Shown in pieces: positions 14,205 through 59,854 of a stretch of 64,000 nt of DNA (the stretch's first letter is position 1; each line of letters opens with the position of its first letter). A model generated the notes under the pieces. The model did no database searches, was not told where the DNA came from, and saw nothing but the letters and a program-made list of their open reading frames with translations. The stretch covers positions 1 through 64,000 of the forward strand of contig NW_027062879.1 of assembly GCF_032884065.1 (NCBI RefSeq), in the 5' to 3' direction. The DNA comes from Artemia franciscana. Taxonomy: Eukaryota > Arthropoda > Branchiopoda > Anostraca > Artemiidae. The translations under genes were made by a program, and so were the position numbers.

Positions 14205-15283
14205 CAGAACTTTATTCAATCTCAATTTATGATGGTTTCAAAAATCCACTAATAAATTTCCTAAACTTTGTAAAAAACATTTATAAGGATTGAAATTCTA
14301 CTCAAATAGCAGGAATTGCATTTTTCAGAACTAAAACCAGAGAAACAGAAACTAATAGGTTAAATTAGGTTAAAATATTGTTTTGTCAAAATTTCAATAG
14401 ATCATTGTCATTATGTAATTGTTGTGGAGCTGATGGGGGTCATGTAAATATTGTCATTGGGGCTCTCAGGTATGTATCTGTTCTTTAATCATTGCAACCA
14501 GTAATGCCTTCTCTCAGGCTGGGTTGTTCCCTCATCCCTTGCAAATAAAGGCATTGATTAAGTTGAAGTTTTTTTTTTAATTTCAGTTATTTAATCCCCA
14601 CCCCCTAAAAAGTCCAATTTAAGGCTATTTTAATTTTCAAAGTCCAAAGTAGCCTAAGGCAAAATGCAGTATATTTTATTTTTCCTATTCAGTGTCCTTC
14701 TGTCTGTAGGTGCGGGAGAAAATAACACAACCAAGGCTGTATCCAGGAGCAGGGGGTTCATGGGGTTTGACTATCAAGGTCATGGGTTTCACCTCTCAAG
14801 TAGGCAAATGTCCTAGACTTGTTAATCAGAAGAGGTTTACCATGGGAGCTAAGCAATATCTTTCCAGAGTATGTTTTTGGCACTAGATTCATTATTGAAA
14901 ATTTCATTTTCTTAACTTACCTTTTTCCAAGATAGCAAAAAGCAGCTAAACTAGAACTTTACCAGTCATAGTATGGAAACACTTAGTGCTCTTTTCTGAT
15001 TTGAAAAGGTTTCCTTAAGAACAGTAACAAATATTGAAAATACTTACCCTACCTATTATTGATCAAGGTTCCTTTGCTCCAGTTCCCCTCCCCCTTACTA
15101 TGTGTTAGATCTAAGATATAAATCTGCCATGTTATTCAGAATCCAATGCTAAGTTGATGTACCACAGTCACTAAATGTATCTGCATGGATTTACTATGAT
15201 AATATTTTGTAAATATGCCAGAAACTAAATATAGTAGTTTCTTCATTTTAAAAATGAGACAAAATGCTTATTAAATTATTTCA
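14205..15283. repeat. Repeat copies and non-coding DNA before the left inverted arm
   Basis: 14205-14400 is the direct copy of 13310-13490, and 14860-14965 is an inverted R2 copy. The rest shows no gene. Recognisable homology with the right arm starts at about 15283. Confidence 0.5.
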
Positions 15284-15689
15284 ATTTGCAAAAGTTTTTT
15301 TTCATAAAGGGTTTGCTTTTGAAAGTATAATGCAAAGGTAGTATTTCATAGAAAGTACCATAAGATACATTCCCAAAATACAGGGGGGAGGCAATAACCC
15401 TGTATCCTCCTCCCATCAATGTGCTCATATGTAATCTTTATTTCTGGTGAGGTATGTTTCACGTTGATATTACTTTTTACTCAGTTATATTTGTTTGATA
15501 AAACCACATACAATTGGATTGAGTGATAATTTTTGTTTTATGATTAGGTCATCATATTTTAGCCTCTCTATAAATCATCCCTTCTATGAATTGGTAATAT
15601 TTGTGTAACACATAAATAATACTAGACCAGCATAAAAAGACTTGCATCTTGCAAGATTGGTTCCAATTTGTATGGTTATGACCCATTTT

Positions 15690-16955
15690 TATGGCACTTG
15701 GTATTTACCAAGTGACATATAGCAATTACAATTTTTTTCCATCAGTCTATCTGTCTGTTGGTCATGGCTCTCCTAGTTTTGGTACTTTCAGATAAGCTAG
15801 GACAATGAAAATTGGCAGGCATATCAGGAACCAGACCAGATTAAATTAGAAATAGTCACTTCCCCAATTTGACCATCTGGGTGGGAGTGAACGAACGAGA
15901 TAGTTGAGAAGAGTTTTTATTTGCAATAAGCCAAACGATTGGGTTCTTATGTGTGTCTCGTTGGTCTTGTGGTATGATTTATGCTTTGAGTGAGTGAGGT
16001 CCTAGATTTTAATCCTGGATGACTTAAATTTTCACATGAAGAATGATCTAAAACTAGATGTATGATCAATACAGGGATTGCTGAAAGTGTTCGGGTGTAT
16101 CTGGGACCAGACCAGATTAAATAAAAAATAGTTGCTTCCCCAATCCAACCATATCGGGAGGAGTGGATGTATGGTTAATTTGGAAAAATTAGAAAAAATG
16201 AGGTATTAACTTACAAACTCGTTATTGGATCTTAATTATATTTGTCATTTAGAAGGACCTTGTGTCTCATAGCTCTTTTTTTAGATCCTGATTGGTTCTG
16301 GTGACATTGGGGGGGATGGAAGGGGTAAATTGGAAATCATGGAAGATGCTTAGAGTGGAGAGATTGGGATTGAACCTGGTGGGAAGAATAATCATGAGTC
16401 CTAGATACATGATTGAAATAACCAGCCTGTATCCACTCTCTTTGGGGGGGGGGGGGATTCCAGTGCTTTGACAAGTTTGGTGCTTTTTAACATGCTAGGA
16501 TGATGAAAATTGGTATGCATGTCTGGGACCTGCACAAATTGACTTGATGTAAGGGAAGGGAAATTGTGAAAATTGATGTATATTTATCTCACAAATGTGT
16601 GATCAGATCTTAATGAAACTTGATATATAGAAAGATCTCATGTCTCAGATGCTCCATTGTCAATTCAGATTGGATCTGGGAGTGAGGGGAGAGTCGAAAT
16701 CTTGGAAAGTGCTTAGAGTTGGGAGATCCAGATTAACCTTGATTGGAAGAATAAGCACAAGTTCTAGATACATGATTGACACAACCAGACCAGATCTGAT
16801 CTCTTTGGGGGAGTTGGGGGAGGATTTCCAGTGCTTTGGAAAGTTCAGTGTTTCTGGGCAAACAGCAAAGTCAATAACTCTAGTACCAAGTCTAATTTTA
16901 GGCGCCAACTTTGCCACAAGTGCCATATGAGGTCTTGGCTCTTGTTCTCTTATAG
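15690..16955 (+). repeat. Repeat family P, copy 2, with tRNA-Pro-like core
   Basis: Opens with the hairpin 'cttggtatttaccaag' and has the tRNA-like part at about 15950-16025 ('ctcgttggtcttgtggtat', decayed B box 'gattttaatcc'). A G-run lies near 16445, and two 'gatcttaat' modules lie near 16226 and 16606, one more than in copy 1. It ends at 'agtgccatatgaggtcttgg'. The ORF pair around 16640-16930 belongs to the repeat, not to a gene. Confidence 0.75.
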
Positions 16956-17648
16956 TTATTTGCTACAATTGGAGTAATAGTGTTTCTTGATATTAGTAAA
17001 TAAATTGATAACAAATTTGCCATAAGTATAACTAAATTTTCTACACCCAGGGACATGCATATGCTACATCTTTAGATCATCTGTAGAATATAAAGTTTTA
17101 CTATCTTAATTCTTTGTTTTGAAGTAAGCAATAGATTGTATCTTTAGATCTTCTGTAGAATGATCATTTCATCTTGGTTCTATGATTTGAATTGAAACAA
17201 GCAATGAATTATTTTTAAGCTTTTTTAATTTTTTTAGTTTTCTAAAACCATCAGTAAACCTTTCACCAAAGTAATTTTGATTGAATTTGACTCAAGACTA
17301 GGTTTGCAGCTAAACTGTCATGCATCTTTCCGGGTCCTAGTTTGGGCTTTAAATATGATTGTGAAAGAGCTGCTTTCAAGGTAACAAAAGCCTGTATTCT
17401 ACAATTTTACCATATTTGCATTACTATAACAAAATTCTAGGTGCTTAAAAAAAAGTCAATAAAAAATAAAATAAAAAAATATTTTTAGAAAGTTGTGAAA
17501 AATGGGGAAAAAATACTAGTTTGAAAATCTATAACAGTGAATACATAACAATCTGCCTATTCTGTGGAAAGAATTTAAAACTGGAGTGCCATTTCCAAGT
17601 GTTGTTGATAGTATTATATGTTTTATAGCTGATATTAACATATTTCAG

Positions 17649-17728
17649 AGATAATATTATGGATGTGCCTCATATTCCAAACATGACTGAGCATGTCACC
17701 ATTCCTGAGACTACTGATGTTAAAAATG
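17649..17728 (+). CDS. Candidate first coding exon, left zinc-finger gene copy
   Basis: A polypyrimidine-poor acceptor ('acatatttcag') precedes the exon and a strong donor ('aaatg|gtaagtt') follows it. The ATG at 17659 opens a frame encoding MDVPHIPNMTEHVTIPETTD, then VKN, ending in phase 1. The frame also stays open back to the acceptor, so translation could begin upstream. The same exon, with splice sites, ATG and phase kept, occurs in inverted orientation at 55744-55823 with about six amino-acid changes. It joins in frame to the exon at 20685 or directly to the zinc-finger exon at 31284. No named domain is recognised. The call rests on splice signals and on preservation in the duplicate. 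Confidence 0.5.
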
Positions 17729-18054
17729 GTAAGTTATCTAATAAATATTTGGTAACAAACTAAAAAGAAAGCTGTTTTTCTTTAGCAAATCATTTTCTCG
17801 TTTTCTTCTTGCTTCTAAAGTTCTCCACAGTAAAAATAACAAAAAAGATACAATATTCAATTGCATAAAAGCTAGGTAATGAAAGTGCTATTTTGCTACT
17901 CAAGAGTAAATTATTAGCTATATTTTTCCTTTGAAGAGACAAGTCTTCAATTTGAAAGTTTTTCTCTTTCTATTTCCTGTTTGCAGACATTAACAATAAG
18001 AAAAATTAGAAAGCAATAAGAAAAAGTATTCCTACTGTAGAGTCCATTTCTTGC

Positions 18055-20684
18055 TGCAGCCACAAAAATTATCTATTAATAATAAGGACTAGTTTCATTG
18101 TAATTATCTATAATAATACAATTATAAATTAGTTATAAGGTTTAGTTTTTTTTGTCTCTTGTAATAAGGATTAAAAAAAAACCCATAGCCTACAATCTTT
18201 TTCAAAACATTACTTTATGTTCGTTTGTTTCCTGTGATTATCTTTTTGTGATTTGTAAATAAACCAAGAAAGAGAAAAGGAGTTTATGATAAGGTAAATG
18301 TTGTTTATTAAAGAGGAAACACCAACAAATCTTCTTTTTTCAGTTACCTCAAAGCACCCTTCTTGGTAGCTAACCTACAATCTGTTTGTTTTTATCTTGA
18401 ATTATTTATTATTGTTTCCTTGTCCTTGCCCTGCCAATTTTTGTTTATTATTTCCTTGGCAGAAACTACATAATTCCAACAGTCTTTTCAGATTGTCCAA
18501 ATTCTGTCAAGTTTTTCAGTTTTTCTAAACTTATTATCAAGAGCTGTAGTATATTTCAAGTAGGAGTGAAAAAAATTAATTTTTCTAGGGTTTTTTTAAG
18601 TAGATTTTAGACAACTTCTCCCACCCTGCACATATTCACTTGTGTACCAAACAATGCTTGCTTTTTTCATAAATATGTGGTATTTGTTCAGTATAGCTAA
18701 GTAATTATCCAATAGATAGCCTGCCAAAGATTTTCCATGTCTTATTTTCCAGGAAACATTGTCTTTATGTTTATTGTAATTAATGTTTTTCATCACAGGG
18801 ATGAAAAATCATAGGTTGACCTCTAGTAGTCTGATTTGTATGTTTGTTGTGTCTTAAAATTGCAAGCTTGCCTCTAGGCCATATTTGCAGTCAATTGAGA
18901 CCCTTGTGTAGGAATTTCCAATGTTTATTATAGATAAGTAGAAACCCAGGTCACCTAGAATATAAAGAGATCAGAATATTACACCCTTTCTTGTCCGAAA
19001 CAGTGACCTGGTACACAATAGTAAACCTTATCTCATTTTAATGCAACATAATTTACAATGATGCTTTCCAAAGAAAGCATTATGCTTGCTCTTCTGGCTG
19101 AACTATTATTTATAGAAACCATTCTACTTTTACTTCACTCTTTTCTTTTGGAGGGGGGGGGGAACAACTCCTCTTGCTCCTTCAATTCACTTGGAGATTG
19201 ATTTACTATATAGGTTGAGCCTTTGGATTGACTTCACTGAGCAACCGGTACAGGTCATGTAGGGAGCAATTTGGTGTTCTGTTGGGATCAAGCGACTGGT
19301 GCTTGAAATAGGTACCGGTGTGTGAAATACTGGGCTGTGATTGCGACTTACTGGCTGTGGATGGTTTTGATTTGGTGGTTATTTCGTTAGAGTTGGAAAG
19401 GGAATATTTCAAATACCAGCTATACCTGTTCTGTTAAAAACAGGAAGTGGGCTAACCACTTTCTCTCATGTGTATGTATACGTTTTTCAAAATCATTTTA
19501 CTAGTATTGATACTGAGACAAAATGAATGAAAGATACAAAAATAGAATCAATTGAACAATTTTGTTGTTTGATTCTAAAGGAAACTGGGACTAGAATTCA
19601 AAGGAAAAGGCAGCATTGCCACCAATTGTAATCGATGCAATCGATAGATTTAGATTAGGAGGGGTGCAAAACAAAATGATTTTTTAGGTGTTTTTTTTTA
19701 GTAGATTTTAGACAACTTCCCCTTTCTCACGCTGCACATATTCACTTATGTTCCAAGTACCGTTTTTGTTTTGTTTCATAAATATGTGGTATTTGTTCAG
19801 TATAGCTAAGTGTGATCATTTAATAGATAGCCTACCAAAAATATTCCATATTTTATTTTCCAGGTAACATTGTCTTTATGTGTATTGTAAATAATATTTT
19901 CATCACATCGATTTGTGTTGTTGATTTTAATCATTATTTGTTCTTAGATTTAAACTTAAGCCCTGCCGAATCTAAATATAGTTTGACCTCTAGTAGTTAG
20001 ATTTGTATGTTTGTTGTGTCCTAAAATTATAAGCTTGCCTCTGGGCTATATTTGCTGTCAATTGAGAACCTTGTGAAAAGATACTTTTTGGGGGGGGGGG
20101 TTAGAAAAATGATGCATATAATTGGTGATACTATTGTTTATTTTGGTGATAATCTGTTATTTTGTAAGTATTCAAAGGGAAAGTATTTCAATTATTAGCT
20201 TTAGTATTTCAATGTTTCTGTCAAACAGGAAGTGGGGTATCTATTTTTTTTTCGTGTATATGCATATGTTTTCCAAAATTGTTTCACCTATATGGAATCT
20301 GAAACAAAATGAATAAAAGATGTAAAAATAGATTTGATTGAACAATTTTGTTGTTTGACGCTAAAGGAAACTGGAATTAGCATTCAAAGGAAAAATCAAC
20401 ATTACCAACAACCATTTGGTGGCTTTTTTTATACTAGATGATTAGCCAACTCATTAGCATATAAACTGCATAACCTGTGGAAGAATTTTCAGGACTCTTT
20501 TTCAACTCGAAATCTAGACATTTTGTGTTGGCTATTTGTCAGAGATAGTTTGATTTCTGCCCTTTTAAGGGTAATTATTTATTCTTGTGGACATAGTGTT
20601 GAAAAGGGGGAAGCAGCTGGACTTGTTTTGTAAGCTTTTCTGTTGAATGTGTTTGATGTCCCTGTTATTTATACTTTCTTTCAG
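18055..20684 (+). repeat. Intronic DNA with a local tandem duplication
   Basis: 18590-19650 and 19680-20430 are direct copies: 'catattcacttRtgt' then 'aaatatgtggtatttgttca' (near 18673 and 19780), 'gacctctagtagt' (18820, 19984), 'aacaattttgttgtttga' (19554, 20340). Unit 1 carries an extra block at about 19040-19400. No exon is evident, and the minus-strand ORF at 19206-19412 falls in that extra block. Confidence 0.7.
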
Positions 20685-20855
20685 AAGTTGAAGAGGCTTT
20701 TCCAAGTGACCATGAGGAGCTTTTTTACTTTCCAGACCACCTTTGGTCTCCTAAAAAGGAAGATGTTCCTGTGGATACTTTTTGCTGTTTTTCAGGACCA
20801 TGTAAACTTGAACCTGACACCCAGGAATTAAGCTCCACATGTTTTGACAGTGAAG
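20685..20855 (+). CDS. Candidate internal coding exon, left gene copy
   Basis: An acceptor with a good pyrimidine tract ('atactttctttcag') precedes 171 bp of open frame and a donor 'gaag|gtacat' follows. Joined to the phase-1 exon at 17728 it reads EVEEAFPSDHEELFYFPDHL, then WSPKKEDVPVDTFCCF and ends CFDSE plus one base, i.e. phase 1 again. The peptide is acidic with two short Cys/Pro-rich spots and no domain I recognise. Its length is a multiple of three, so skipping keeps the frame. No matching exon was found in the right arm. The 62-residue methionine-started frame here is the wrong reading frame. Confidence 0.55.
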
Positions 20856-23800
20856 GTACATCTCAAGCTTTTGGTTTTTATATAATCAAATAAAATAAAT
20901 TAGACTTTGTTAGGTCTTCTTCATCTTAAGATTTGAAACTGCTGAAGCCAAATCGAGACGAAATAAAAAAACAAAAAAAAAAAACTTGAAACTATGCAAT
21001 GGACTATGGACAACAATTCCTGCAAATTCTAAAATTTTTAACTTTCTGTATAAAAATTGTTAATTTTGTTGAACGAACTTGTTTCATTTCTAAAAAAAAC
21101 ATTGAACATTAATGTCGTCTTGTACTGTAGTATTAAGTATTGTAGTGTAAATGTTTTGTACTTGTAGATGATTATGTTTCTTTTGTACTCCGCTTGTTTT
21201 ATTTCTATTGTCTTAAATCCAGCAGATAATATATTAAAATTATATAAAGCTTTTGAATAGTATTAATAAAGGTTTATAGTAAGACTCAGTTTGGATTCTG
21301 AATTTTTGGAAAACATATCAAAGCAAAACAAGAGTTAAACACAAAACAACTCACTCAGTATCAAATATTACCCTAAAATAGACCTCTGTTTCAAAAGGAA
21401 ACACAAAATTTGTTTTAAAAAGGAAATCTGTTTTAAAAGGAAAGGCATAATTTTTATGCAAATCAACGCTGTATTTATGGTGTTTGAAATCTTTAAAGGG
21501 ATTATGCTACCATATTTAGAAATTTCCATAGATAACTCTAGAAAAACCTAGTTTAAACAAAAGCCAAATAAACAAAAGTTTACTTTGCTAAGTAAAGTTA
21601 TGAATGAAATTGTGATTATAAAAGTTCAGTCACAAAAGAATGTCCAGCATTTATAGGAGTAAGTCAGAGAGGAAGAGAGTTTTTGTGTGGAAGAAGAGGA
21701 CAATATTTTTCCGGTATGTCCAAAATTGTAATATCAGTAAAAAAAATGGCGCAAAAAATAAAACCACTGAAAATAATGACATGCACATGAGCTTGAGATT
21801 TTTCTTATCATAGTGTTTTCAGTAGAAAAAAAAAGATTTCGAAGATGCTTTATAATTAAAATAGCAGAACATAAACTTTTTCTACAGACTTCTAAGCCAT
21901 TCTTATTCAACGTAGTAATGGCAGTGGCATGGCCAGGTGGCTTAGACCACATAGGGTGGTACTATCCAGGTGTTGGCACCAAGAGAAAAAAGTGGAAGCT
22001 CATTTTTCAAGTATAGTAAGACTACGAAAGATCTAAGGGTATTTTCCATCGTTAGCCCTAGCTACTAAAGCTTATGGCTTTTGTGTTAGTTAGCTAAATA
22101 CACTGGGTGGATTTTATACTTAGAAACACATACTCAAAGCTTTACACCGTATGCTTAACCACTTCCCGCACTTCAAATCCCGCACTCCCGTCAAGGCCAC
22201 TGATAGAGAATACACCTCCAAAACTGCGATCCCACCTGGTGTGAGTCACAAACCTGGAGCTCACACCATCGATTTACTTTCATCCCAGTGCATCATGGAG
22301 GCTATATAATCATTTATCAGGCTTTATTATTTGTTCAACTCTGTTGTAAGTTCCATGTTCACAAAAAATTAAACAGTGTAATTCCCATCATTTTTTAAAA
22401 TAGTCAGGTATAAGGCATGGAAAGGTGGTCTTGTTAAACTAAGAAAGGAGTCCGCTTATGACGGCAACCTTGCTTTTAACACCAATGAGTAGCGGGTGCT
22501 GTTGGGACTTGGAAGGGCAATCAAAGAAAGGGGGGTAGTTTGAATTTTATGTTTATTTGTAATGAGCTAACATAAAACTTAAAAATTAAATGTTGGCAGA
22601 TATATTTCCCCAAAGAAACTAAAAGTAATTTTCTAAAATAAAAAAAAACTAAGAATACTTGAGTATATTTTTAGTATAATATTTGTTAAACATGAAAAGG
22701 CTTGGTAAATTATTTTTATTGTTATGTCTTAGTTGTTCTAATGAAAAATAATAACACATCACACACAAAAAGAAACGCTGCCACTTAAGCACAAATGATA
22801 GTCTGGCCTTTTGATGGCTTTTGAGATGTATGTATTTCCTATTTGTTTCGGGTCTCCTCTTTACTTGTTTCGTTGATTGTAATTTCAGTTTGTTTTAAGT
22901 TTGAAATATTTTGTGACTTTAATTGTGCTAGTCATTGGCTTATTACGGTTCTTTAGCTTCAAGAAAGTTGCACCTACTCGGTTTTGTATTCTTATTATTA
23001 TTTTCAAAATGAAATTACTGTACTTCTTTATAAGGTACAGCACAGCTAATCAAGTAACAGTTGAGCTTGGTCAAGCCAATAATGAAGAGTTAAACCATCC
23101 ATAACTTAATGACATTGTAAATTTTAGATAAAATTGTAAATTATAACCAACTATTTTCTGCTGACAAACCTCTTTAGGGACAAATATCGATTTTTCACAC
23201 CTTTTTCATTAATCATATATCTACTTTCATCCCAGTCTGATGTTCTTTAACTTTCTTTGAAAACTTACCTTTGAAAAGAAATTAATAGGGAAATTGCAAT
23301 ATTTGATGAATTACATGGAAAAGAGAAGATTGTGAAGTTTAAGTCCCTAGAATAGAAAACAACACATTAGCAAAAACAGACCAGATTCAAAACTATCCTT
23401 TACCGGGAAAAATACAAAGAGATCACTTGGGAAAATATGTTAACACAGTACAGTTTAAATAGTCTAATTGAAAGCCAATTCTACTTTTGTTTCGATTATA
23501 AAATATCAAATAAGTGTCGAAAAACAAGAATTATGACTAAATAAGCGAAACAAACTTTTTTTAAGTATGCAAATTCGCACACACAGCCAATACATACAAA
23601 CAGTGTATTTTATTCCAGTTTGAAACTTAGTGCCTCCCTTTAAAGTTCTTTCTAAGCAGTATAACAAGAAGAATAGAATCATTGCTGAACCTTAGTAAAG
23701 AGCAAATCAGGGCCAACCATGGTGCATAGTAGCCTAAAGCATGAAAACGCTCTTTGAAAAATAACCGTCAAGGGATAAGGATTTTGTGTGAATCTCAAAA

Positions 23801-24136
23801 GGGACTTTAAAAAATTTAAAACGCGCTCACCAAATCATCTACCTTCTCCCCAAAAAGTTGCAAGCTTGTGTTTTACCCCACTCTGGTATCAGAGTAGATC
23901 CATGCTATTAAAACAGAAAAAAAATCACAAAGAGACAATTGACAGAGCATCTTGTTTAAATAGAAAAAGAACTTAATAACCTGCTTTTATGATATAAATA
24001 CGTGAGATTTTAGTGCAACGGTATCTTCGCCACTGTAAATATGGGCGTTTTTATTAGTTCAAGAATACCTCAATAAAATTTTCAAGAGCACCTAAGAAAC
24101 TACAGAGTAGCATTGATGAAGTTGTAAACTCAGTTT
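20856..24136. other. Intronic or intergenic DNA, no gene recognised
   Basis: AT-rich with no protein-like frame. A slightly GC-richer patch at about 22145-22300 contains 'gagctcacaccatcgattta' and may be an old repeat. Otherwise nothing is visible. Confidence 0.4.
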
Positions 24137-24469
24137 AGTAGTAGTAGTAGTAGAACAGTTTTATTAGAAATAAACATTTCTTAATCAATAGCACAACATA
24201 AGCGAAGCTTGCGAGGCTGTGCTAAATGCAAAGAAAATAAAGAGACAATATGGAGAATAAGAAAATATGGAGAATGAGACCATATACCGAAATCAACAAA
24301 AAAAACCATAAACAATACACTACTTTGCGTGACCCCAAGACAGCAAAAAAAAATAATACATAAATATTACAAATGAATAACCTATGTAAAATTTATTTTA
24401 GTTAATCTGTTTCAAAAGTATACCTACCAAGCAACTCCACAAGTAAATCAGACTTAAACTGGCCCGAGC

Positions 24470-27300
24470 TACCTATTTCCTTGATATCTATACTCAGTTT
24501 ATTCCAAAGTTTTTAAGCTCTGTAAATAAGTGAAAAAGAAGACCTACTTGAAACTAATCGAGGAACCTCACTATTACCTCGTATCCGAGTAATGCGGTGT
24601 TGAACATCAGACCTCTCACAAAATATCCCTGTAAAACAATCAGGAAGGCTATCACTGTAATACTTATATATAAAAATCAACGTATAAAAATCACGTAATC
24701 CAGCTGCAGGCATATATTTAAATCTCTATACACAGACCTGAAAGACTCCTGGTTCCCAACACCACAAAAAACTCGGATAGCATTATTTTGGATCACATGG
24801 ATTGGACGAACTATCGAAGGGAAAGTACCAAGCCAAATCGACGTGCAATACAAAATGTAAGGGTGAATCAGGGAAAAATATAACAATCGTAGAACATTTG
24901 GGGGGAAAATATGTTTTAATTCTCGCATGATACCTGAGTTACGTGACAATATTTTCGAAACTGACTTCACATGATCTTTAAATGATAGGGTTTTATCAAC
25001 ATTGATTCCGAGGTATTTGGTGAATCTTGTTCGTTTAATAATTCCCCGCTCCGAAATTATTTCCGCAAAACAAGGGTAAAAATTCGGAGATCGAGAGAAA
25101 ATAACAAATTTGACTTTTCTATATTCAGGGCAAGGTGGGTTTTTTTAAGCCATATACATATCCTGCTCATTGCTGCATTTATCGTTGACATAAGCAGTTG
25201 TTCTGTAGGGGCAACACACACCAAGGTTGTATCATCAGCAAATAAGAGCATAGTAAGCTGGGTCTTACTTGGACCATTGTCAACAAACTCGTCAATTCTG
25301 GGCAGAGCTTTCACAACATGCGGTAGATCATTAATAAAAATTAAAAACATAGTCGGACCCAGTACGGATCCTTGGGGAACCCCCCAATTAACAACATTTT
25401 TACTAGACAAAAATCCTTGTAAATTGACATACTGATGTCTGTTTTGAAGATATCTGCAAAGCAAACCCAATGTAGCACCCCTTAATCCATAAAATTCACA
25501 TTTTTTTAATAATATTTGATGGTCAATAGTGTCAAACGCCTTAATTAAGTCCAAAACACCAGCTACCTTAAGCGTTTTATCAAGAGTATCATTAATTATA
25601 GTAATAATAAATGAAATCGCCATTTCTGTTGTTCTGCCCTTCCTGAAACCAAACTGATTTGGATGTAGAAGTTTATGACGCTCCAAATGGTCATAAATTC
25701 TAATATTAATACATTTTTCTAAAACTCGTGAAACAACAGGTAATAATGAAATTGGTCTATAATTCCCCAAATCATTCTTATGACCACCCTTAAACACAGG
25801 AGTTATTCTTGCAATTTTAAGACAATTGGGGAACTTCCCTTGCTTAAAACAAGCATTAATAAGGGATGTTAATATATGTGAAATGCTTGGAAACTCGGCT
25901 TTTAAAACAAGAAGGTTAATGGAATCACTCCCAGCCGAAGAACTTTTCATCTCAAAGATAATCTTACGAACTTCATCATGAGTGACAGGTCTTAGATACA
26001 TTGATACATCGACAGAAGTACCCATAAAAGTCTCAAGTGGAGGATCATTATCAGAAGCTACTGTAGTACGAGAAAATCGCGCCCCAACAGCTGTAAAATG
26101 TTCCGAAAGGGCATTACAAATTACATCAGGCTCATTCGATTTTAACCCATCACTTGTAGTAACTTCATCGGGCAGAACCAGATCTATTGAAGATATAACA
26201 CTTTTAATAATTTTCCAAGTTTTAGTCGGGTTACCACAAGCATCTTTAAATTTACACTCAAAATATTTTTTCTTCGCGTTTCTCAAAAGTCTATTAAGAG
26301 TATTTCTATAATTTTTATAAACTCTTGTGCAAACTGGATCATTTTCATTCCTTATTCAATCCCTATATAACTGTTCTTTCTTATTTATGCACCGCAGAAG
26401 ACTAGGTGACAACCATGGCTTTTTGTCGTATCTTTTTCCTTGACCTTGTCCGACTCATTACACAAGTTTTGCTCAGAATAGAGATCAATGTATCATAAAA
26501 TCTCTGAAAACTTATATTAATATCATCTAGATTTTCATCTTCATTATTCCCATCAACATTAGAAATCTCTTGTTTAAACTTTTCTAAGTTACCCTGGTTA
26601 AGCACAGGTAACATACTCATTTTCAGTCTAGGGCCTTGTTGCCTCGGGAAACAAACTTTAAAACTTGCCGAAATCCCAAAATGGTCAGAAACATCAGTAA
26701 CAATAACCCCTGGATCTGAAAATTTAGAATTAGAAAAAATATTATCAAGTAGCTTTGCCGTTAAAGTGGTAACACGCGTACAAATATTAATAGTGGGAAA
26801 TAAACTATATGACATGCAAAGCTGTAGGAAGTCCATAGGAGTATTCGAATTCATATCGTTAAGGTCAATATTAAAGTCCCCAAGCATGAAGAATGGGTGC
26901 GAACCAGTAGGTAGTTTATCCAACTGTTCCTCCAAAATATCCAAAAAGGCCGGTATAGACCCAGATGGTGGTCTATATAGTACAACAACATAAACATCTT
27001 TTGGCTTAAGCCTGAGCTGAAGGATAAGTGGCTCAAATAACATCTCGTGAAACAGCACTAGATCACTTCTTACCAAAACCTCGATATCGCTCCGTATATA
27101 AGCTCCAATACCTCCATGTTGACGAAATTGACGATTCCTATGATGATATGTATACCCTGGAATATCCAAGAGAGCAGAGTTATGCTCATTTCGCCATGTT
27201 TCTGTGAGATCAATAACCTGAAAAATGGAAAGTTCACATATCTCGCTTAAAATAAAATAAAAGATGAATTCAAACCCTGGCAGTTAAGATGGAAAACTCT
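24470..27300 (-). pseudogene. LINE ORF2: endonuclease and reverse transcriptase, frameshifted
   Basis: The reading runs through several frames. About 27513-27247 ends in LRVFHLNCQGL, the usual endonuclease N-terminus. About 27225-27170 reads VIDLTETW. 27169-26402 carries the APE-type endonuclease with GGIGAYIRSD, VVVLYRPPSG, GDFNIDL and SDHFGI. 26286-25057 carries the reverse transcriptase with NYRPISLLPV, QFGFRKGRTT, AGVLDLIKAFDTIDH (Ser to Ile against the usual DLSKAFD), GVPQGSVLGP and the catalytic FADDTT. 24970-24513 holds the C-terminal region with LLYFSLIHPYILYC. The endonuclease nicks target DNA and the RT copies the RNA there. Breaks near 27240, 26330 and 24970 disable this copy. Confidence 0.92.
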
Positions 27301-27747
27301 GAGATCTTCAGAATCACCACCACTATTCCCAGACCTCAAACCATCTTTAAATAGGTACTTTGAATTACAAGAAATATATTGACCAGCAATCCCAATATCA
27401 TAATTCCGGTGGAGCTGCTCCGTAAACATACTACCAAAATCCACAAATGAAGCTTCCAAATTTTTAAGACGGCTGTTGCCCGGGGTGCCACGATCACCAT
27501 CAACCATATTCATACAGTTTTACAACAAAGTAATATGGCCTCATCTCCACAACAAAACAAAAAAGAAAAGAAAAAGAACTAAACAAGAACAAAATAGAAT
27601 ATAACAAACAACAAAAGAATGACACTTTCCATCTCGGAAAAAAACAAACAAAAAAAGAAACATGCCGTATATTGTTTGCCCGTAACGAATCCATATACAA
27701 GTTACCAAATACAACGGCTACTAATTCCCACAATCACACAACCATAA

Positions 27748-28694
27748 TTATCGCGACAAAATAGCAAGTTTTATTTTAATTAAATTTTTTATTATTTTTT
27801 TTTTAATTGATCTTTTCAATAACAAATAAACACTCACTAATCTAACAACAGCAAAAAAAAATAAAGAATCCAACAAACTCTTAGCATTGTACCAAGGCAC
27901 TTTAATAATACGGTTGTCCTTTTTAACAGAGATGCTGGGTGGTAGGGTAGGAGGTACCCAGCATTCCACACCTTTATCCGCCAAACGCTTACGTAACCCA
28001 AGTAATTCTTTACGCAAAACCCGCACACGCGGTGAGACATCATCACTAATAAAAACAGACTTAAACCGAACTCTTTCCCTTTTAATTTTTTCGCATTACT
28101 TAGAATCAAGAAACGTGCCTGGACACTGTCCACCCTAATTTTAACAAAATTCTTGGAACAGTGAACCACAGTGAATGGTGGCAACTTGTCAGGTGGGAGT
28201 GACAAACCAGCTACAATCACCTCAGAAACCCGAGATGCAGCCTCATTCAAGGGTAAATCATTAAGGCCCCAAAACAGCAAATTGTACAACTTGTCCCGAT
28301 TTTCATCAACAAGAGACTGGGTCACTACCACATTCATTTCCTCATTGCATTTCTTAATCACCTGTGACAGGGCTTTTACAAAACTTTGCAGAGCTAGAAG
28401 TTCCGATTTCACTGTTGCAATTTCATTGTCCGTTGCATTACTTTTATTTTCTAGCACCGTAACACAACTTTTAACTGTACCCAAATCGTTCTGAATTTCA
28501 AGTACACTCTGCTTTAGGGTTTCCATGTTCACATTTATAGATTGGACCATTTCCAAAATTTTAATGATATTCTCTGTATTCGTTTTCTGGCAGTCCGCAT
28601 TAACACTCGTATCCGAATTACTAGTAGAATTCATAACCGGATCCGATAACTCAGCTTCTGTCCGGTTGCGTTCGGGTCTGGCTTTCTTTCCCAT
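27748..28694 (-). pseudogene. LINE ORF1: coiled-coil RNA-binding protein, frameshifted
   Basis: The likely start is MGKKARPERN at 28694; an upstream in-frame ATG at 28721 is possible. A Ser/Asn-rich N-terminus is followed by a heptad-rich coiled coil (roughly residues 50-120, IIKILEMVQSINVNMETL and onward). An RRM-like middle follows (DKLYNLLFWGLND ... FTVVHCSKNFVKIRVDS). A frameshift near 28090 moves the C-terminus into the frame at 28026-27748 (VLRKELLGLRKRLADKG ... IKVPWYNAKSLLD). The layout fits ORF1 proteins of L1/CR1/L2-type elements, which trimerise and bind the element RNA. The break makes it non-functional. Confidence 0.8.
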
Positions 28695-28740
28695 CCTGAC
28701 TATATCAAAATAATATGTCACCTACCTTTGCAAAAACTTA

Positions 28741-38060: not shown

Positions 38061-38132
38061 AACTTGAGAAAGTCTTATAAGATTTTCCTTCACTCATATA
38101 AAAGCGTACCATTTAAAAAGTGCCACAATATA

Positions 38133-39106: not shown

Positions 39107-39108
39107 TA

Positions 39109-42229: not shown

Positions 42230-42239
42230 ATGTGTATGT

Positions 42240-46310: not shown

Positions 46311-47152
46311 TTTTTTGGCCAAGAATTACAAAAGACATTGAAGAGCATATCAGACACTGCTATGGATACACCTGATATATTTCAAATTAAGCCAGGAAAT
46401 ACCCCTAAGTTTCAAATTTTTCAGAGAAACGTTCATCCCAATTGAAAATTCCCCCAACTTCCGAAAATAATTCTTTACATTTCACAGTGAGAAAACTGCA
46501 AAAATAAAGTCCTTTTCCCGAAGGCTTTGTGGGTTATTGCCATCCCTAAAGATAAAGCTATAGAAATTTTTCAAACCCACTTAATCAAATAGGTATCTAA
46601 AGATTTTTATGGGGTGTTTTAGGGGGGATTGATGTGGGATGGGGTCTTATCAACTCCAGTCGTTTGATCGCTTAAAAATGGCTCAAATTGTTGGTTTTGT
46701 TAGAATGAGTCATCTCGTGGTATTTTAGGACTACTGGTTCAGTACAATCCCCCCTGAAAAAACAACAACAAAATAATAATAAGCACTCATCCGTGATCTT
46801 TCTTTTGGCTGAAAATATAAATTCCACATTTTTGTGGACCTTGAAACCTCTACAATACGATTTTTAGATTTGCTGAATCAAATGGCGCGATTTTCAAAAA
46901 AAAGACTAGACTTTTGGTGGATGTTTCTCCTTCTTTGAAAATCGGATGTCTTTAGAAAATAAACAAAAATGTTCAAAGAGAAAATTAATTAATTAATGAA
47001 CTTATAAAACTATAAAAGAATAGCAAAATAAAGAAGCAGAGTACAATAGGATCCGGCAAGACCACAGAAATTGTTATTGTAAAATATGAATTAGCACTTT
47101 ATCTAAGAATGAGTTGTTATATGATTATTAAGATTTAAATCAGAAGAATATT

Positions 47153-48450
47153 CTATCTTGGATATATCTCACTTATACGGTTTATCTTGTCACCAGTGTG
47201 CACTCTTTGGTGCCGAATCAAATGGCTTGACACAGAAAATTTTTTTTCACATATATCACACTTAAACGGTTTCTCATCAGTATTTTGTCTTTGGTGCTTA
47301 ATCAAATTGCTTGACTGAGAAAATTTTTTCTCACATATATCGCACTTAAACGGTTTCTCACCAGTATGCATTCTTTGGTGCGTAATCAAATTGTTTGACA
47401 CAGAAAAAGTTTTCCCACATACATCACACTTAAACAGTTTCTCGCCAGTATGTAGTCTTTTGTGGTTAATCATACTGCTTGACAGAGAAAAAGTTTTTTC
47501 ACATGTATTACATTTAAACGGTTTCCCACCAGTATGTAGTCTTTTGTGGTTAATCAAACTGCTTGACACAGAAAAAGTTTTCCCACATAAATCACACTTA
47601 AACGGTTTCTCACCAGTATGTAGCCTTTTGTGGTAAATCAAACTGCTTGACTGAGAAAAAGTTTTCTCACATATATCACACTTAAACGGTTTCTCATCAG
47701 TATGTAGTCTTTTGTGGTTAATCAAACTGCTTGACACAGAAAAAGTTTTCTCACATATATCGCACTTAAACGGTTTCTCACCAGTATGCACTCTTTGGTG
47801 CGTAATCAAATTGTTTGACTGAGAAAAGCTCTTGTTACACACGTCACAAATGTATTGCTTTATCTTTAAATGAACTTTTTTCAGTCTTTTTACTGTTTTG
47901 TGTTTCTTACCATGCAAGGGACTATTCAAATATATCTTATGATTGTCTAAGCTTTTTGCTTCAGAATCCAATTCGAATGAATTAAAACAAGCATTTGTAG
48001 AATGATTCTGTGTAACAGCTAGTGATGAACTTCCCTGTAGTTTTAACTCAGAGGCGCTTGGGGAAAAATTGCCATGAAAATTACCATGATGTGAGTCAAG
48101 TAAATGTTGACTCACATCACCAATACATTCACACAAACAAATAGGACATCTTCTTGTCTGTCCCATTTGGTGTTTCATAATATGAACAACAAAATTTCTG
48201 TATTCCCTAAATATTGTAGGGCAGATGTCACATTCTATTGGGGAAAGTTCTTCACAGCCGGTGTTGATGTGAAGATTTAGCATAAAAAACGATTTTTCTA
48301 CATTTCCACAGGAGCCACAACGCCAAATACCAGCTGTTAATTCATCAATATCCTTCTGTGTCAGCTTCTTCACATTCAAGATTGGTTTTGGGCCAAAGAG
48401 TTTTGGTTGATCCCCACCATCAGAACTGCACACAGTAAAATGAGTTATCT
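47153..48450 (-). CDS. C2H2 zinc-finger protein, main exon, right copy, intact
   Basis: The acceptor 'tactatag' (minus) is at 48451-48457 and the exon starts in phase 1: AG, then ITHFTVCSSDGGDQPKLFGP. The frame is open to TGA/TAG at 47153, about 433 codons. The N-terminal third has an atypical Cys/His region: WRCGSCGNVEKS, CDICPTIFREYRNFVVHIMKH and CPICLCECIGDVSQHLLDSH. A basic stretch (KKHKTVKRLKKVHLKIKQ) precedes eight tandem classical fingers with TGEKPF/TDEKPF linkers, from YICDVCNKSFSQSNNLITH to FKCDICEKKFSVSSHLIRH. Finger 7 ends in Asn instead of the last zinc-binding His (HQRQN). The short tail is GDKINRISEIYPR. It is predicted to bind DNA in the nucleus; the target is unknown. An in-frame upstream exon is proposed at 55744-55823. 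The plus-strand ORF at 47391-47636 is a shadow. Confidence 0.92.
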
Positions 48451-48960
48451 CTATAGTAAAAAAAAACTATTAAAAGTAAATAAGGTAAAAACGATTCAAT
48501 AATTGGACATCATAGCAATTAAAAATGAAAGTTGAAGATTTTATAACTGTTACCAGTTTGGGATCTACACTGCCTATCACTTTCGAATGAAACAAAAATG
48601 AAAGAACAAAACTTGAAATTAGTTTCACTTAATAGATGTATCAGAATTGGAATAATAACATACAAAATCGTTTTCAGATTTCAAACTTGAAAATCATACA
48701 GGATAAAAAAAAATTGAAAAAAGCTTGTATCATAGTCTCACTTTGAAAACTAATTTAACAGTAACATTCCATAAGTTATGAAGGTCATTGTACCAATAAA
48801 TTCGTAAACATCAGAAAATAATTATGTAGTTCTAAAAATTATGATCTACAGGGATAACTGCCCCCCTTTCCCCCTTTCACCGTAATTTCTGAACAAACTT
48901 GGGCTTAAACTAAATTGATTTTCAGCTTTCGTTTTTAGCCTACAAACATTTTTCATAGAC

Positions 48961-49330
48961 TGAAATGTTTTTTTTTTACGTTAATGACTTTCACTAATTT
49001 GGAAATTCCTTTAAGGAACGATTTTTTAAGCATTGCTATCAGCATGATGATGGATGTCTATAAGACCATAAAAGAGACACAATTGTTCACAAGCAAATTC
49101 TAAGCACTATCTAATAGCACACAAAAAATGGCTTTTAGAAAATATGCATATTGTTTTTAGCTATTGACAAGTCCTTTGGTCAGTTTGCTACAAATATTTT
49201 TCTAGAAATGTAAACTTTTGATAAAGAACTTATTTAAAATCACACTTACAGCAGGAACCTAACATGGTTTTACTTGATTTTTATACGATCATAGGCAGAC
49301 CTTTTGAAATATACCAAATGCCTTCATTTA
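48961..49330. other. No gene recognised
   Basis: Non-coding, beyond the end of the segment II homology. Confidence 0.4.
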
Positions 49331-53064: not shown

Positions 53065-55270
53065 TACCAAACCAAAAGCTTGCTACTTCTGTGATGGTGA
53101 ATATTCACCCTCCAACAAGTGTGCAGCAAAAGGAAAGATTTGTAGCAACTATGACAAATTGAACCACTTTGCAAAAGTAGCAAAAGGAAAGTGACACAAT
53201 AAACCAGCAACAGCATCCTTATGACGCACTAAAAATAAACGATGATGAGTTTTTTAATATGTTGTAAACATGGAAATGAGTGACAATCAACCAAAATTAA
53301 GGCATATGATCAATGGGCAAATCAGCATTATTTTTAAAATTGAAACTGGTGCCCAAACAAATATTATACCAGAGAACCTTTTAAACTCAATCAAACCAAA
53401 ACAAAAAATCAGCAAGACACTACAAATCCTCACCAATTTTTGGGGGGCAGAGAATCCAAACAACAGGTGTTTGCAGCCTCACCTGTGCATACACCAATGT
53501 ATGCAATGAAACACAACCCTTCTTTGTAGTGAAAGATACCCCCATACCAATTATAGGCTTTGAAACTAGCAGAAAACTGAAATTAATCAAGCTGATACTG
53601 ACAGTTGAAAACACAATCCCAAAGTCAACCCCTTTCATAGAGGAATTCCAAGACATTTTCCAAGGTATTGAACAACTCGAAGGAGTGTCACATTCCTCTC
53701 AAAGAAGGGGCTGACCCAAGGGCCATACCAGCCAGGCGCATCCCAATAGCCCTCCAGGACACATTCAAGGAGGAACTAGATAGAATGAAAAAACTGAGTG
53801 TCATCAAAAAAAGTCTCTTACCCCATAGACTGGGTGAATGCAGCAGTTGTGGTAAAAAAAAAAAGCCTGACCAAAGCCTTGGAATATGCACCCACATGAC
53901 TTATACAAGACTATCAAAAGACCCCACGACCCAATACCAACATTTGACAAAGCAATATTGAAACATTCTGCTCCTAAGTTCTTTGCAAAATTGGATGTCC
54001 ACCATGGATACTGGTCTCACATCCTTGATGAGGATTCATCTCAATTAACAATGTTCAACATACCATATGGTCAATACATCTTCAGACCGCATGCTGTTTG
54101 GTCTAATCTCAGCACAGGACGAATTCCAGAGATGCATGGAGGAGACATTTGAGGGTATCAAAAGGTTCTCTGTCATAATTGATGACATCATTTTATCAGG
54201 AAAAACCATGGAAGAGCATGACCCTAATGTCCGCAGCGCGCTAATCCGGCCACGTGAAAAAGCTGTCAAGTTCAACCCAGAGAAAAGTGTGTTTGGATGC
54301 AAAAGCATACCAAACGTTGGACACATAATATCAGAAAATTGCATCCACCCAGATCCCAAAAAGGTCAGTGCACTAAGAGAAATAAGGCCCCCATCTACCA
54401 AAGAAGAACTACAAACTATACTAGGAATGATGAACTACCTTGCACAGTATATTCCTAACCTGTCATCACTAAACCAGCCACTACGTGATCTTGCAAAACA
54501 ACCAAGAGTTTAAGTGGGAGCATCAATATGACACAGCCTTTACCAACATCAAAGAATCCATCTGCAGTCCCTTACATAGTTTGATCCAGCAGCAGGGAAC
54601 ATTGAGCTACAAGTTCATACTTTGCCGTTTGGCCTAGGAGCCACTCTCATTAATAATGAGAAACCAGTTTTTTCCACATCATGTGCACTGAACGCCTCCA
54701 AACTAAACTATTTGCAAATAGAAAAAGAACTTTATGCCATTCTTTTTGGATGCATGCACTATCATGAATACTATGACCAGAAATTCAGGTTGGTATCTAA
54801 TCACAAACATCTCAAAGTAGTCCTGAATCAACCTATGTCAAAGTTTTCACCAAGACTTCAATGAATGTTACTGAGAACCCAACCATACAACTTCACAGTA
54901 ACATTCCACCCAGACAAAAAATCCCTGTTGCCAATGCCCTGTCTTGCCTGAATCTTCCTGAAGAGAATACAACAATACAAAAGGAAATTGAATCATACAT
55001 ACAGTCAGTGATGTTGCTACAATCAATCAGCAACAGCAGACTCAAAAAGCTCAAACAACAGACAACAGTAGATGCTCAAATGATTGTGCTTGCTAAGACA
55101 ATTCAAAGGGGTTGGCTGGAAACCAAGAAACCTCTCACCAACCCTCAATATCATACTAAAAGGAGATTCCCTAGTCATATGCCAAAACTCCCGCAAAGCA
55201 AATCCTCAGCTGTATACAAGCATCACACTAGAGCATAAAAAAAACTAAGCAGCAAGCTTGATCACTGAAG
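53065..55270 (+). pseudogene. Ty3/gypsy-type gag-pol remnant, copy 2
   Basis: In order: a decayed CCHC knuckle region ([15 protein letters not shown], then CSNYDKLNHFAKV, some ligands lost); protease with IETGAQTNIIP where DTGA is usual; RT with RRIPIALQDTFKEELD, FFAKLDVHHGYW (first catalytic Asp kept) and VIIDDIILSG (Asp pair kept); a template-switch region ILGMMNYLAQYIPNL; RNase H (LNASKLNYLQIEKELYAILF); and a broken connection region. No integrase or LTRs were identified. Frameshifts near 53690, 53850, 54090 and 54510 kill it. It resembles copy 1 closely but extends further 5'. Confidence 0.9.
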
Positions 55271-55743
55271 TGTCTATAAATATTAGTTCAGCCAAATAAA
55301 AGTAGAGTGAAGGGTCTATAAATAATAGTTCAGTCAGAGGAACAAGCCTAACACTTTCTCTGGAAAGCATTGTTGTAAATTGTGTTGCATTAAAATGTGA
55401 TAAATCAGCTGTGAGATATGGGCTCTTCAGTAGGAATACTTTTTTCTTATTGCTTTCTAATTTTTCTTAATGTTTATGTCTGCAAACAAGAAATAGTAAA
55501 AGAAAAACTTTCAAATTGAAGACTTGTCTCCTCAAACTGAAAAAATATAGCTTATAATTTAGACACTTTCGTAGCAAAATAGCCCTTTCATTACTTAGCT
55601 TTTATACAGTTGCATATCCTTCCTTTTTTGTTATTTTTACTGTGGAGAACTTTAGAAGCAAGAGGAGAAAGAGAAAATTATTTACTAAAGAAAAAACAGA
55701 TTTCTTTTTAGTTTGTTACCAAAATTTTTATTGGATAACTTAC

Positions 55744-55823
55744 CATTTTTGACAACAGCAGTAGCAGGAATGGTGACAGGCTCAGCCATGTTTGGAATAA
55801 GAGGCACATCCATAATATTATAT
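55744..55823 (-). CDS. Candidate first coding exon, right zinc-finger gene copy
   Basis: On the minus strand the acceptor 'catatatcag' is followed by ATG at 55813, a frame reading MDVPLIPNMAEPVTIPATAV, then VKN, and the donor 'aaatg|gtaagtt'. It ends in phase 1, which joins in frame to the intact zinc-finger exon at 48450 (G plus AG). Compared with the left copy there are about six substitutions and no indels, stops or splice-site losses, which suggests constraint or recent duplication. The intron would be about 7.3 kb and contains the gypsy remnant, the (TA)n tract and Helitron-like DNA. Function of the peptide is unknown. Confidence 0.5.
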
Positions 55824-56529
55824 CTGATATATGTTAATGTCAGCTATAAAACATATAATACTATCAATAACATTTGGAAATGGCACTCAAGTTTTAAATT
55901 CTTTCCACAAAATGGACATTGTTATGTATTCACTGTGACAGATTTTCAAGCTGGTATTTTTTTCCAGTTTTTCACAGCTTTCTGAAAATATTTTTTTTCT
56001 GTTATTTTTATTGACTAATTTTAAGTGCCTAGTATTTTGGTATAGCAATACAAAAATGATAAAATGGTAGAATACAGACTTTTATTAGCTTAAAAAGCAG
56101 CACTTTCTCAATCATATTTAAAGCCCAAACTAAGACCCAGGAAGATGCATGACAGTGTAGCTGCAAACCTTGTCTTGGGTCAAATTCAATCAAAATAACT
56201 TTGGTGAAAGGGTTACTGATGGTTTTAGAAAACTAAAAAAAAATTAAAAAAGTTTAAAAAATAAATTATTGCTTATTTCAATTCAAATCATAGAACCAAG
56301 ATGAAATTATCATTCTACAGATGATCTAGAGATGTAATCTATTGCTTGCTTCAAATCAAATCATAGAACCAAGATGATAAAAAAATTTATTCTACAGATG
56401 ATCTAAAGATGTAGCATATGCATTTCCCTGGGTGCAGAAAATTTAGTTATACTTGTGGCAAACTTGTTATCACTTTATTTACTAATATCAAGAAATACTA
56501 TTATTCCAATTGTAACACACAACTATAAG

Positions 56530-57745
56530 AAAATAAGAGCCAAGAGCTCATATAGCACTTGTGACAAAGTTGGAACCTAAAATTAGACTTGGTACTAGAT
56601 TTTTAACTCTGCTGTTTGCCCAGAAGCACTGAACTCAGCAAAGCACTGGAAATCCCCCCCCCCCTAACTCCTCCAAAGAGATCAGATCTGGTATGGTTGT
56701 GTCAATCATGTATCTAGAACTTTTATTATTCTTCCCATCAAGGTTCATCCTGATCTCCCAATTCTAAGTGTTTTCCAAGAGTTCTACTCCCCTCCCCTCC
56801 CAGATCCAATCTGAATTGACAATGGAGCATCTGAGACATGAGATCTTTCAATACATCAAGTTTCATTAAGATCTGATCACCCATTTGTAAGATAGACATA
56901 CGTTAATTTTCACAATTTCTGTTCCCTCCTGCCCCCCCCCCCCCAAGCTGGTCAAATTGGGGAAACAACCGTTATCAAGTAAATTTGTGCAGGTCCCTGA
57001 CATGAATACCAGTTTTCATCATCCTAGCATATCCATAAGCACCAAACTTGCCAAAGCACTGGAAATCCCCCCCCCCCTAAGAGAGTGGATACAGGCTGGT
57101 TATTTCCATCATGTATCTAGGACTCATGCTTATTCTTCCCACCAGGTGTCATCCCAATCTCTCCACTCTAAGCATTTTCCAAGATTTCCAGTTTACCCAT
57201 TCCATTCCCCCCAATGTCACCAGAACCAATCAGGATCTAAAATAAGACCTATGAGACAAAAGGTCCTTCTAGATAACAAATGTCATTAAGATCCAATCAC
57301 CAGTTTGTAGGTTAAAAACACCTAATTTTTCCAAATTAACCATACACCTGCAAACTTTCAGCAATCCCTGTATTGATTATGCATCTAGTTTTAGATCATT
57401 CTGCATGTGAAAATTTAAGTCATCCAGGATTCAAATCTAAGACCTCACTCACTCAAAGCAAAAATCATGCTACTAGACCAACAAGATGCACATAAGAAAA
57501 ACAATCATTTGTTTTATTGCAAATAGAGATTTTTCTCAACTATCTTGTTTACTTGCTCCCCTCAGATGGTCAAATTGGGGAAGTGACTATTTCTAATTTA
57601 ATCTGGTCTGGTCCCTTATATGCCTGCCAACTTTCATTGCCCTAGCTTATCTGAAAGTGCCCAAACTAGCCAAGCTATGACCAACAGACAGACAGACTGA
57701 TGGAAAGAAACTGCAATTGCTATATGTGACTTGGTAAATACTAAG
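56530..57745 (-). repeat. Repeat family P, copy 3, with tRNA-Pro-like core
   Basis: Inverted partner of copy 2. The tRNA-like segment is at about 57415-57492 (minus). C-runs near 56655, 56932 and 57068 match the G-runs of the other copies. The ORF at 56957-57289 is part of the repeat. Confidence 0.75.
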
Positions 57746-59854
57746 TGTTGTAAAAATGGATCACAACCGTATATATCGGAACCAAACTTGCAAGATGTAA
57801 GTTTTTTTATGCTGGTCCAGTATTATTTTTGTGTTACACAAATATTGCTAGAAATAAAGATAACATATGAGCACATTGATGGGAAGAGGATACAGGGTTA
57901 TTGCCTCCACCCTGTATTTTGGAAATTCATTTTATGGTATTTTCTATGAAATACTACCTTTGCATTATACTTTCAAAAGCAAAACCTTTATGAAGAAAAA
58001 CTTTTGCAAATTGACACAATTTGTGTCAATCAGTATTGATTCAGAGTTCAAGGTGTGAGGACCTATATTTGGATTGAACCTATCACTAATATTTGGTACA
58101 GGATTATCGTCTCTACCTGACATATAGCCAATATTTTCATAATAATTAATTCAGTGTCCAAAGAATTATAAATAAGCGGATTATTTTCAGACTTGAGTGA
58201 AAATTCCCTTGGGAACAGTGGGTGCGTTTCTTTACTTGTCCGATTATTAATCTGATTAATCCAAGCGTTTCTTTAGACACATATGACGTCAGAGGTTAGT
58301 CGGATTATCCCCACAAACGCTCAAGATTACTTGTCCGTGGGCTGGCACTTTATAACCCCCAAATAAAAAGATTATTTGAGGATTGTGACGTCAATGCTAT
58401 ATATTTTTTTAAATGGATAAACATGTGAAATCGTTAAGTCTAGAGAAAAGACAAGGAAACTGTACATAATAGAAATAATCTTAGCTTTTCAGTGACCTGT
58501 AAGTAATATTATGCATATTCCTTAGTATCTAAAGGGTTTTTGGTGTTCTAGGCCTGTCTTGCATAGGCTAAGCTTCATAAGGAGTCAGAAGAAAAGTTTT
58601 TTTGTTATTAAAAAGGTTGATTCTTAGGGAGGCAGCTATCACATTGGTGAGTTAGTCAAATGTTATTATATCAAACAGGCCTAGTTTCTAAACCATCCTA
58701 TAATTATTAGTTGGAAAAAATTTAGAATGATTAGGCCAATACCTATAGCCTTTTATATAGTCTATATTTGTTGAGACTGCTATTTAAACTGGATTTTTAA
58801 GATACAGTAGGGGTAAAATTTTACTTTAGCTACTTTTGGCTATCTTTGAAAGAGGTTAGGCTAGGAAAATGAAACTTTCAGGGATGTGTCTACAGGCTAA
58901 AGTATTTCCCAGGAAGGTATTTTGAAGTACCTACTTCTACTTCTTTTCCCTCTAAAGGGTCCTGAAATTTTTGGGTGCCTCATTTTTTTGGTTATCAGTT
59001 TCTTTTTCTCTGGCCTTAGACAACTCCTGTTGATTGAGCAGAACTTTAAGCCATAACACTGTTTTTTTTCTAATTCTAAAAATAATCTTTTATGCCACCT
59101 CATTATAGGTTAAATATATGGCTTATATTATTTATTCTCCATGAATTTTTGTTTTATTTGATTTCATTGATGTCAGTTGCTTTCTGTTAAAAATATATTT
59201 ATTTTTTTACATCAAGCTTCTTCTTTTGTGAAAAAATTTGAACTGTTTTTCTTTTTATATATTGTATAAAATGTAAAGGAATACCTGGCCCTTCATTTCA
59301 CAGATTCAACTGAAAGTATTAGAGGCATCTTACATCAAAATTCATTTGACACATTTTAATGTTTTTTTTTTTAGATGACATAGGACACCATTAAAGTTTT
59401 GCATTTCCTTTGCTAAAAATTGTCTTAAAAAGTGCCAAGTTTAGAGAGTTATGTTAATATTTTTCTTGCTGATGAGTATAATTTTTTTTTAAATTCCTTC
59501 TGTTTAAAGAATTTTAGAGAGATTCTGAGCCAACCATGGGTATATTGTTGTTACAAATGATTTTTCTCAAATGGGGTTGTGGAAACCAAGTAGAACATAT
59601 AATTTCTCTTTTTTTATTATTTCGAAACCAGAATATCACAAAACTAAGCATTAATATTGCTGATTGTACCTTAAGTAAATACAATCCCTGATGGAGTTTT
59701 GTTGATACCTGTTTAAAAATTTATTTGTCTTAATGAAATACATATTGTTTGTGGGACAGCAATGAGCAACTATGACTTGAGTTATTTTTTTTTTTTTCAA
59801 TATTTTCTTTTTTCCAAATAATTTTTGTTCTCTGGTGACATTTGTATTCCTTCC

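Follow-up and report, generated by a model that had tools for sequence, protein, structure and literature searches.

Inverted zinc-finger block in the Artemia franciscana genome: evidence for one duplication and later copying to other loci

Y-chromosome palindromes consist of long inverted arms around a spacer, with conversion from one arm to the other. The locus of Artemia franciscana described here shares the long inverted arms around a spacer, but these arms are about 11% different and are not kept alike overall. In the genome of the springtail Folsomia candida, inverted duplication is reported to have given rise to 11 palindromes, and one of these holds zinc-finger genes (PMC5490193), so this kind of structure is already known. 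Our block is, like those palindromes, an intragenomic inverted duplication in an arthropod; it differs from them in that the inverted block occurs at more than one locus and each arm has one zinc-finger exon. A search of the literature on inverted zinc-finger clusters gave no match, which does not show that the block is undescribed. Expansions of zinc-finger genes have been linked to transposon control in a published proposal (PMC10547256). The locus resembles the lineage-specific C2H2 expansions of metazoans in its many tandem-finger genes within a genome rich in transposon remnants and in the greatest variability of finger columns 6 and -1, and differs from them in that Pfam found no KRAB, ZAD or other N-terminal effector domain in the tested exon (PMC10547256). 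No general view is changed by this block, and its value lies in illustrating the growth of a zinc-finger family by inverted duplication, block copying, and then decay and reshuffling of fingers, with shared and private insertions giving an order of events.

The window, that is, the whole stretch of DNA analyzed, comprises bases 1 to 64000 of the unplaced contig C293 (74,927 bases), and the genome with which it was compared has 1,270,528,402 bases in 6,468 contigs (~1.27 Gb). Arms are named below by contig and side (C293L, C293R). Self-comparison yielded two inverted pairs, segment I (15273-18051 versus 58022-55414) in three pieces of 86-93% identity, and segment II (30775-34818 versus 48967-42148) in pieces of 82-88% identity. 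In a sensitive search, 59 inverted matches were found between the left and right parts of the window, the best collinear chain having 15 pieces of up to 1,736 columns, whereas the same-strand control of that search gave 22 matches and a best chain of six pieces, the longest of 282 columns. Both segments lie on one collinear inverted chain (15273-19135/58022-55294 and 30775-34818/48967-42148), which confirms the nested, inverted arrangement reported in the initial annotation. The inner edge of the duplication was placed at 34818 / 42148. Outward, segment I reaches past the window, 13914-15278 being inverted with respect to C293:67298-68720 (86% identity, K2P 0.097). The nearest relative of its left arm among those compared is C14:1098416-1101479, and its right arm is 93.8% identical to C14:1129146-1131890 and 93.6% to C17:42606480-42608752. 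The features are collected in Table 1.

Table 1. Features of the inverted block in the window, in order of position
Feature	Positions	Strand	Remark
Segment I, left arm (upstream part of unit), including outward extension 13914-15278	13914..18055	+	self-comparison, sensitive search, other copies
Dispersed repeat within segment I, both copies	15686..16946	.	relative at 4505-5411
Small block extending segment I inward	19028..19135	+	pairs with 55294-55403, inverted
Left-arm interior, family DNA without match in C293 right arm	19378..24135	+	
LINE in left arm	24144..28995 (edges approximate)	-	Pfam RVT_1 and Exo_endo_phos
Segment II left arm, zinc-finger part	30775..33450	+	
Left zinc-finger exon	31314..32461	+	frame broken; Pfam
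Segment II left arm, 3-prime flank to inner edge	33681..34818	+	
Central spacer (loop) of palindrome	34819..42147	.	7.3 kb; full length on C14, pieces on C415
Dispersed ~1 kb repeat with inverted ends in loop	38127..39113	.	inverted ends 38130-38393 / 39109-38844
Segment II right arm, 3-prime flank	42148..43859	-	
Gypsy-like remnant in right arm	44448..46306	+	marker of right-type arms
Segment II right arm, zinc-finger part	46376..48967	-	
Right zinc-finger exon	47153..48424	-	within 437-codon stop-to-stop frame; Pfam
Second gypsy-like remnant, adjoining segment I right	53404..55264	+	self-comparison
Segment I, right arm	55266..58022	-	resumes at C293:67298-68720 beyond window
Insertion in right arm	58023..64000, on to about C293:67297	.	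uninterrupted site C14:1129146

Two further nested inverted pairs of the chain were considered as parts of the arms and rejected. The outer pair, 10485-11953 / 60933-59469 (K2P 0.19), was judged to lie outside the duplication because its right copy falls within the insertion at 58.0-67.3 kb and C14:1129146 is uninterrupted there. The inner pair, 35278-36001 / 40363-39710, has a K2P of 0.36, and similar repeats occur elsewhere.

Equal divergence of the two segments had been proposed beforehand as the mark of a single event, and an alignment of the arms segment by segment bears this out. The arms of segment I differ at 283 of 2,573 positions (11.0%), counting a dispersed repeat common to both arms, and the non-coding arms of segment II at 276 of 2,590 (10.7%), with a Fisher p of 0.72 when sites are taken as independent. 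The count leaves out the coding stretch 31314-31876 (32/561), the finger array (114/585), the block at 19028 (15/108), a short repeat at 13510 (12/115), the outer pair (29/183 and 241/1,427), the inner pair (180/643) and two same-strand comparisons. Between the arms, the finger array seems more divergent (K2P 0.23); as finger number differs between copies, non-matching fingers have probably been aligned there. Were gene conversion keeping the arms alike, they should be closer to each other than to copies at other loci; the C293 arms have a K2P of 0.07-0.14 in regions A to B3, against 0.02-0.06 among right-type copies, and their overall distance likewise indicates that similarity is not maintained along the whole of the arms.

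The inverted block also occurs outside this locus. A genome search with 30780-34740 gave at least 110 match rows; among the matches listed, relatives at 87-88% over the zinc-finger part are the other C293 arm, two oppositely oriented copies on C14, and copies on C16 and C415. Grouping by eye adds at least about 30 matching places, spread over nine other contigs. On C14 (1.062-1.085 Mb) the inner arms and inner edges of both sides are present together with the 7.3-kb loop; the edges, at 1069246 / 1076577, correspond to those of the window, and the loop has 93% identity over its full length. On C415, arms of both types are present, and part of the loop remains as two pieces that end at 39489; this contig keeps the left inner edge and has lost the right one, where it jumps from 39489 to 44572 in window coordinates, so that the right inner edge is common to two loci, C293 and C14. 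C16 has a single, mostly left-type arm with the first 747 bases of the loop. The K2P of the loop copies is 0.03-0.06. Most of the at least 133 match rows of the loop search fall in or around query 3310-4312, the repeat at 38127-39113, and without its embedded repeats the loop was matched at C14, C415 and C16 among the matches listed. The search with segment I gave at least 85 match rows. Segments I and II are not always together, since the only part of segment I found in C14:1040001-1062600 is 232 columns of its dispersed repeat, and a right-type segment I stands at C14:1.129 Mb. The initial annotation had held that many copies elsewhere would reduce the segments to ordinary dispersed repeats, and such copies do in part exist, with the block on C14, part of it on C415 and the zinc-finger part dispersed. 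The occurrence of the block, whole or in part, elsewhere in the genome marks it as a real but ordinary segmental duplication, a piece of a spreading gene family.

Two side observations concern the places of the copies. The segment I copies at C14:1129820-1131742 and C17:42606684-42608604 are ~0.9% apart, as in a recent duplication between chromosomes. By match coordinates, several zinc-finger units on C14, C11, C17 and C21 stand a few Mb or less from the end of a long contig, which gives the impression of a subtelomeric position, and those at C16:6.3 and 9.6 Mb and C21:8.1 Mb lie away from contig ends.

The arms fall into two types. C293R groups with C14L, and with C415R where present, with a support of 100 in all four segment II trees, and C14R groups with C415L with supports of 100, 100 and 96 in the three segment II sets holding both. 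The segment I tree separates C293L and C14:1098k from C293R, C14:1129k and C17 (support 100). The two arms of the window differ in how cleanly they follow this division. C293L groups with the left types with a support of 95 at the inner edge and of 100 in segment I, and is mosaic in between; its zinc-finger exon joins the right-type arms in region A (support 91), and it has a K2P of 0.05-0.14 to left-type arms (C14R, C415L and C16; C14:1098k for segment I), being about equally far from right-type arms in several pieces. The diagnostic sites of C293L are divided left:right as 34:4 of 39 at the inner edge, 122:44 of 170 in segment I, 18:11 of 30 in B2, 24:24 of 51 in B1 and 18:31 of 49 in A, and those of C293R, in the same order, as 7:30 of 38, 36:135 of 177, 7:22 of 32, 1:53 of 54 and 3:47 of 50. 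Conversion, or ancestral states held in common, may account for the mosaic pattern. For the zinc-finger exon, gene conversion between the arms was considered and not adopted, the pattern being suggestive and a third-position test not significant (p = 0.12). C16 goes with left types in A (100), B1 (93) and weakly B2 (60), and, in the short B3 set with its 312 bases of C16, with right types (95). In the right arm, the stretch 48970-49640 is an outlier, with a K2P of 0.26 to C14R, 0.11 to C14L and 0.03 to C415.

The palindrome on C14, the grouping of right-type arms across contigs and a gypsy-like remnant that these arms share all point to an inversion older than the copies, and the order of events read from these sequences is that the inversion preceded the copying, C293L and C16 having a mosaic history. 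We consider it very likely that a single inverted duplication of a zinc-finger unit produced the block, which was later present at several loci and then underwent gains and losses of transposons. A unit of at least 20 kb, made of a C2H2 zinc-finger exon and a long upstream region, would have been duplicated once, inverted and tail-to-tail, around the 7.3-kb spacer, and we infer that ordinary break repair or template switching was responsible. The inverted block would then have come to stand at more than one place, its inner part complete on C14 and shortened on C415, and with C16 holding one arm by itself, mostly of left type, and each copy would afterwards have gained transposons and lost pieces. 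The unit itself would be a member of a dispersed zinc-finger family spreading by segmental duplication. The single ancestral inverted duplication of a zinc-finger locus proposed in the initial annotation thus finds support in the equal divergence of the segments and in the same two inner edges on C14.

Alternatively, two members of the dispersed family could have met in opposite orientation through independent duplications, with no single inverted-duplication event. The zinc-finger family does occur on many contigs and in both orientations, segment I and segment II copies are also found apart, and C293L is mosaic and not cleanly left-type. We nevertheless regard such a meeting as unlikely, given that the region A tree unites left and right types (support 100) to the exclusion of the five other sampled units (C14:535k, C11, C21, C14:4181k and C14:1054k), that the two segments are equally diverged, and that both inner edges are common to C293 and C14. 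An assembly artefact, in the form of a false palindrome or of a head-to-head join between uncollapsed haplotypes, might be suspected because C293 and C415 are short (74,927 and 55,913 bases) and C293R and C415R are only ~2% apart. These two contigs could be partly divergent alleles, and the palindrome would still not be false; the distance between the arms and the same palindrome on the 41.8-Mb contig C14 make an artefact very improbable, as had been anticipated. Finally, an accidental nesting of ordinary dispersed transposons, as a reading of segments I and II, is extremely improbable, for although 15686-16946 is a dispersed repeat and the outer pair and the inner pair at 35.3-36.0 kb resemble repeats, the rest of segment I (query 1675-2783) is found, among the matches listed, at 8 places (at least 8 in all) besides the two in C293, two places on C21 hold both segment I and the zinc-finger part in the same orientation with segment I upstream, and the loop outside its repeats has the restricted distribution given above.

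Under the single inverted duplication that we favor, the unequal spacing of the arms would come from later events, and the initial annotation had ascribed part of it to insertions. This holds for the left LINE, which is missing at the corresponding places of C14R and C16 and has at least 35 other match rows of 93-96% identity, and for the remnant at 44448-46306, which is collinear in C14L and C415R and, among hits of 120 or more columns, has no match at the corresponding place of C14R, C415L or C16; C14R has a gypsy-like piece at a different position, 1094638-1096132. It does not hold in the same way for the second remnant, whose neighbourhood is also on C14:1.13 Mb and C17 and hence is not private. 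The two remnants are K2P 0.16 apart; Pfam found no domain in two ORFs of the first, for which gypsy is the earlier reader's name, and a partial reverse transcriptase match, under the Pfam cut-off, in the second. Deletions have contributed as well as insertions, since family DNA of the left arm at 20.2-30.8 kb is lacking on the right: outside the LINE it had no match in the C293 right arm by self-comparison, and parts of it are found in C14R and C16, partly in C17 and C14:1.135 Mb, and in many more distant places. The interior at 19378-24135 is found in C14R, C16, C17 and C14:1.135 Mb and, more distantly, on C21, C107, C10 and others. The right arm lacks a stretch of about 1 kb (18056-19028) that is largely present at more distant places on C21, C10 and C5. 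At 30775-30786, C16 and C14R carry an extra 1.3 and 2.7 kb, which suggests a deletion on the left arm. The repeat at 15686-16946 is taken as dispersed because at least 30 further places match only about that stretch, with main rows of 72-79% identity.

Other elements were observed in the right part of the contig. The right-hand insertion holds a LINE from 63388 (into C293:64001-74000) with two stop-to-stop frames of 374 and 883 codons, the second with endonuclease and reverse transcriptase domains. At 51514-52254 there are two tandem 377-base units with a tRNA-like head and an A-rich tail, like a tRNA-derived SINE; Rfam at gathering scores gave one weak tRNA match in this repeat (51887-51966), and ARAGORN found no tRNA. 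An (AT)n run of ~100 units stands at 52803-53004, and there the C415 match switches place, C415:34119-35919 ending and C415:11280 beginning.

The right zinc-finger exon has tandem C2H2 fingers in an open frame (PF00096, E 3.5e-49, 8 stretches), with an array of seven canonical fingers and, by eye, one degenerate finger, preceded by one single finger. In the left exon, when both arms are read side by side, three single-base deletions before the array split the frame, so that the part before the array is spread over frames and the seven fingers of the array remain in one. In the exon before the fingers, dN/dS is 0.29-0.33 in all six pairs between arm types (C293R, C14L and C415R versus C14R and C16, the C16 frame being shorter, 158 codons), a range that indicates purifying selection between the types. 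Comparisons of right-type copies with one another give a dN/dS of 0.68-1.08, each pair having 5 to 16 changes; these ratios, based on few changes, and the broken left copy suggest that the genes here may be decaying. Over 75 fingers, variability is highest at helix position 6 (2.71 bits), followed by -1 (2.26), a non-contact column (1.98) and position 3 (1.87), and by motif count the arrays of the closest units have 5 to 21 fingers. Judged from its family, the product is likely a DNA-binding regulator of transcription that may act against transposons.

It seems quite unlikely, though a few other pairs hint at it, that tail-to-tail inverted zinc-finger pairs are themselves a favored unit of spread in this genome, with preferential copying of such pairs from chromosome to chromosome. 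A second inverted zinc-finger pair was noticed within C14:520001-540000 (526395-527245 versus 536314-535461, 92%); it has a similarly arranged relative on C11:48150001-48170000, with main blocks 93-97% identical, and match coordinates suggest the same paired arrangement on C12 and at C14:4.09 Mb.
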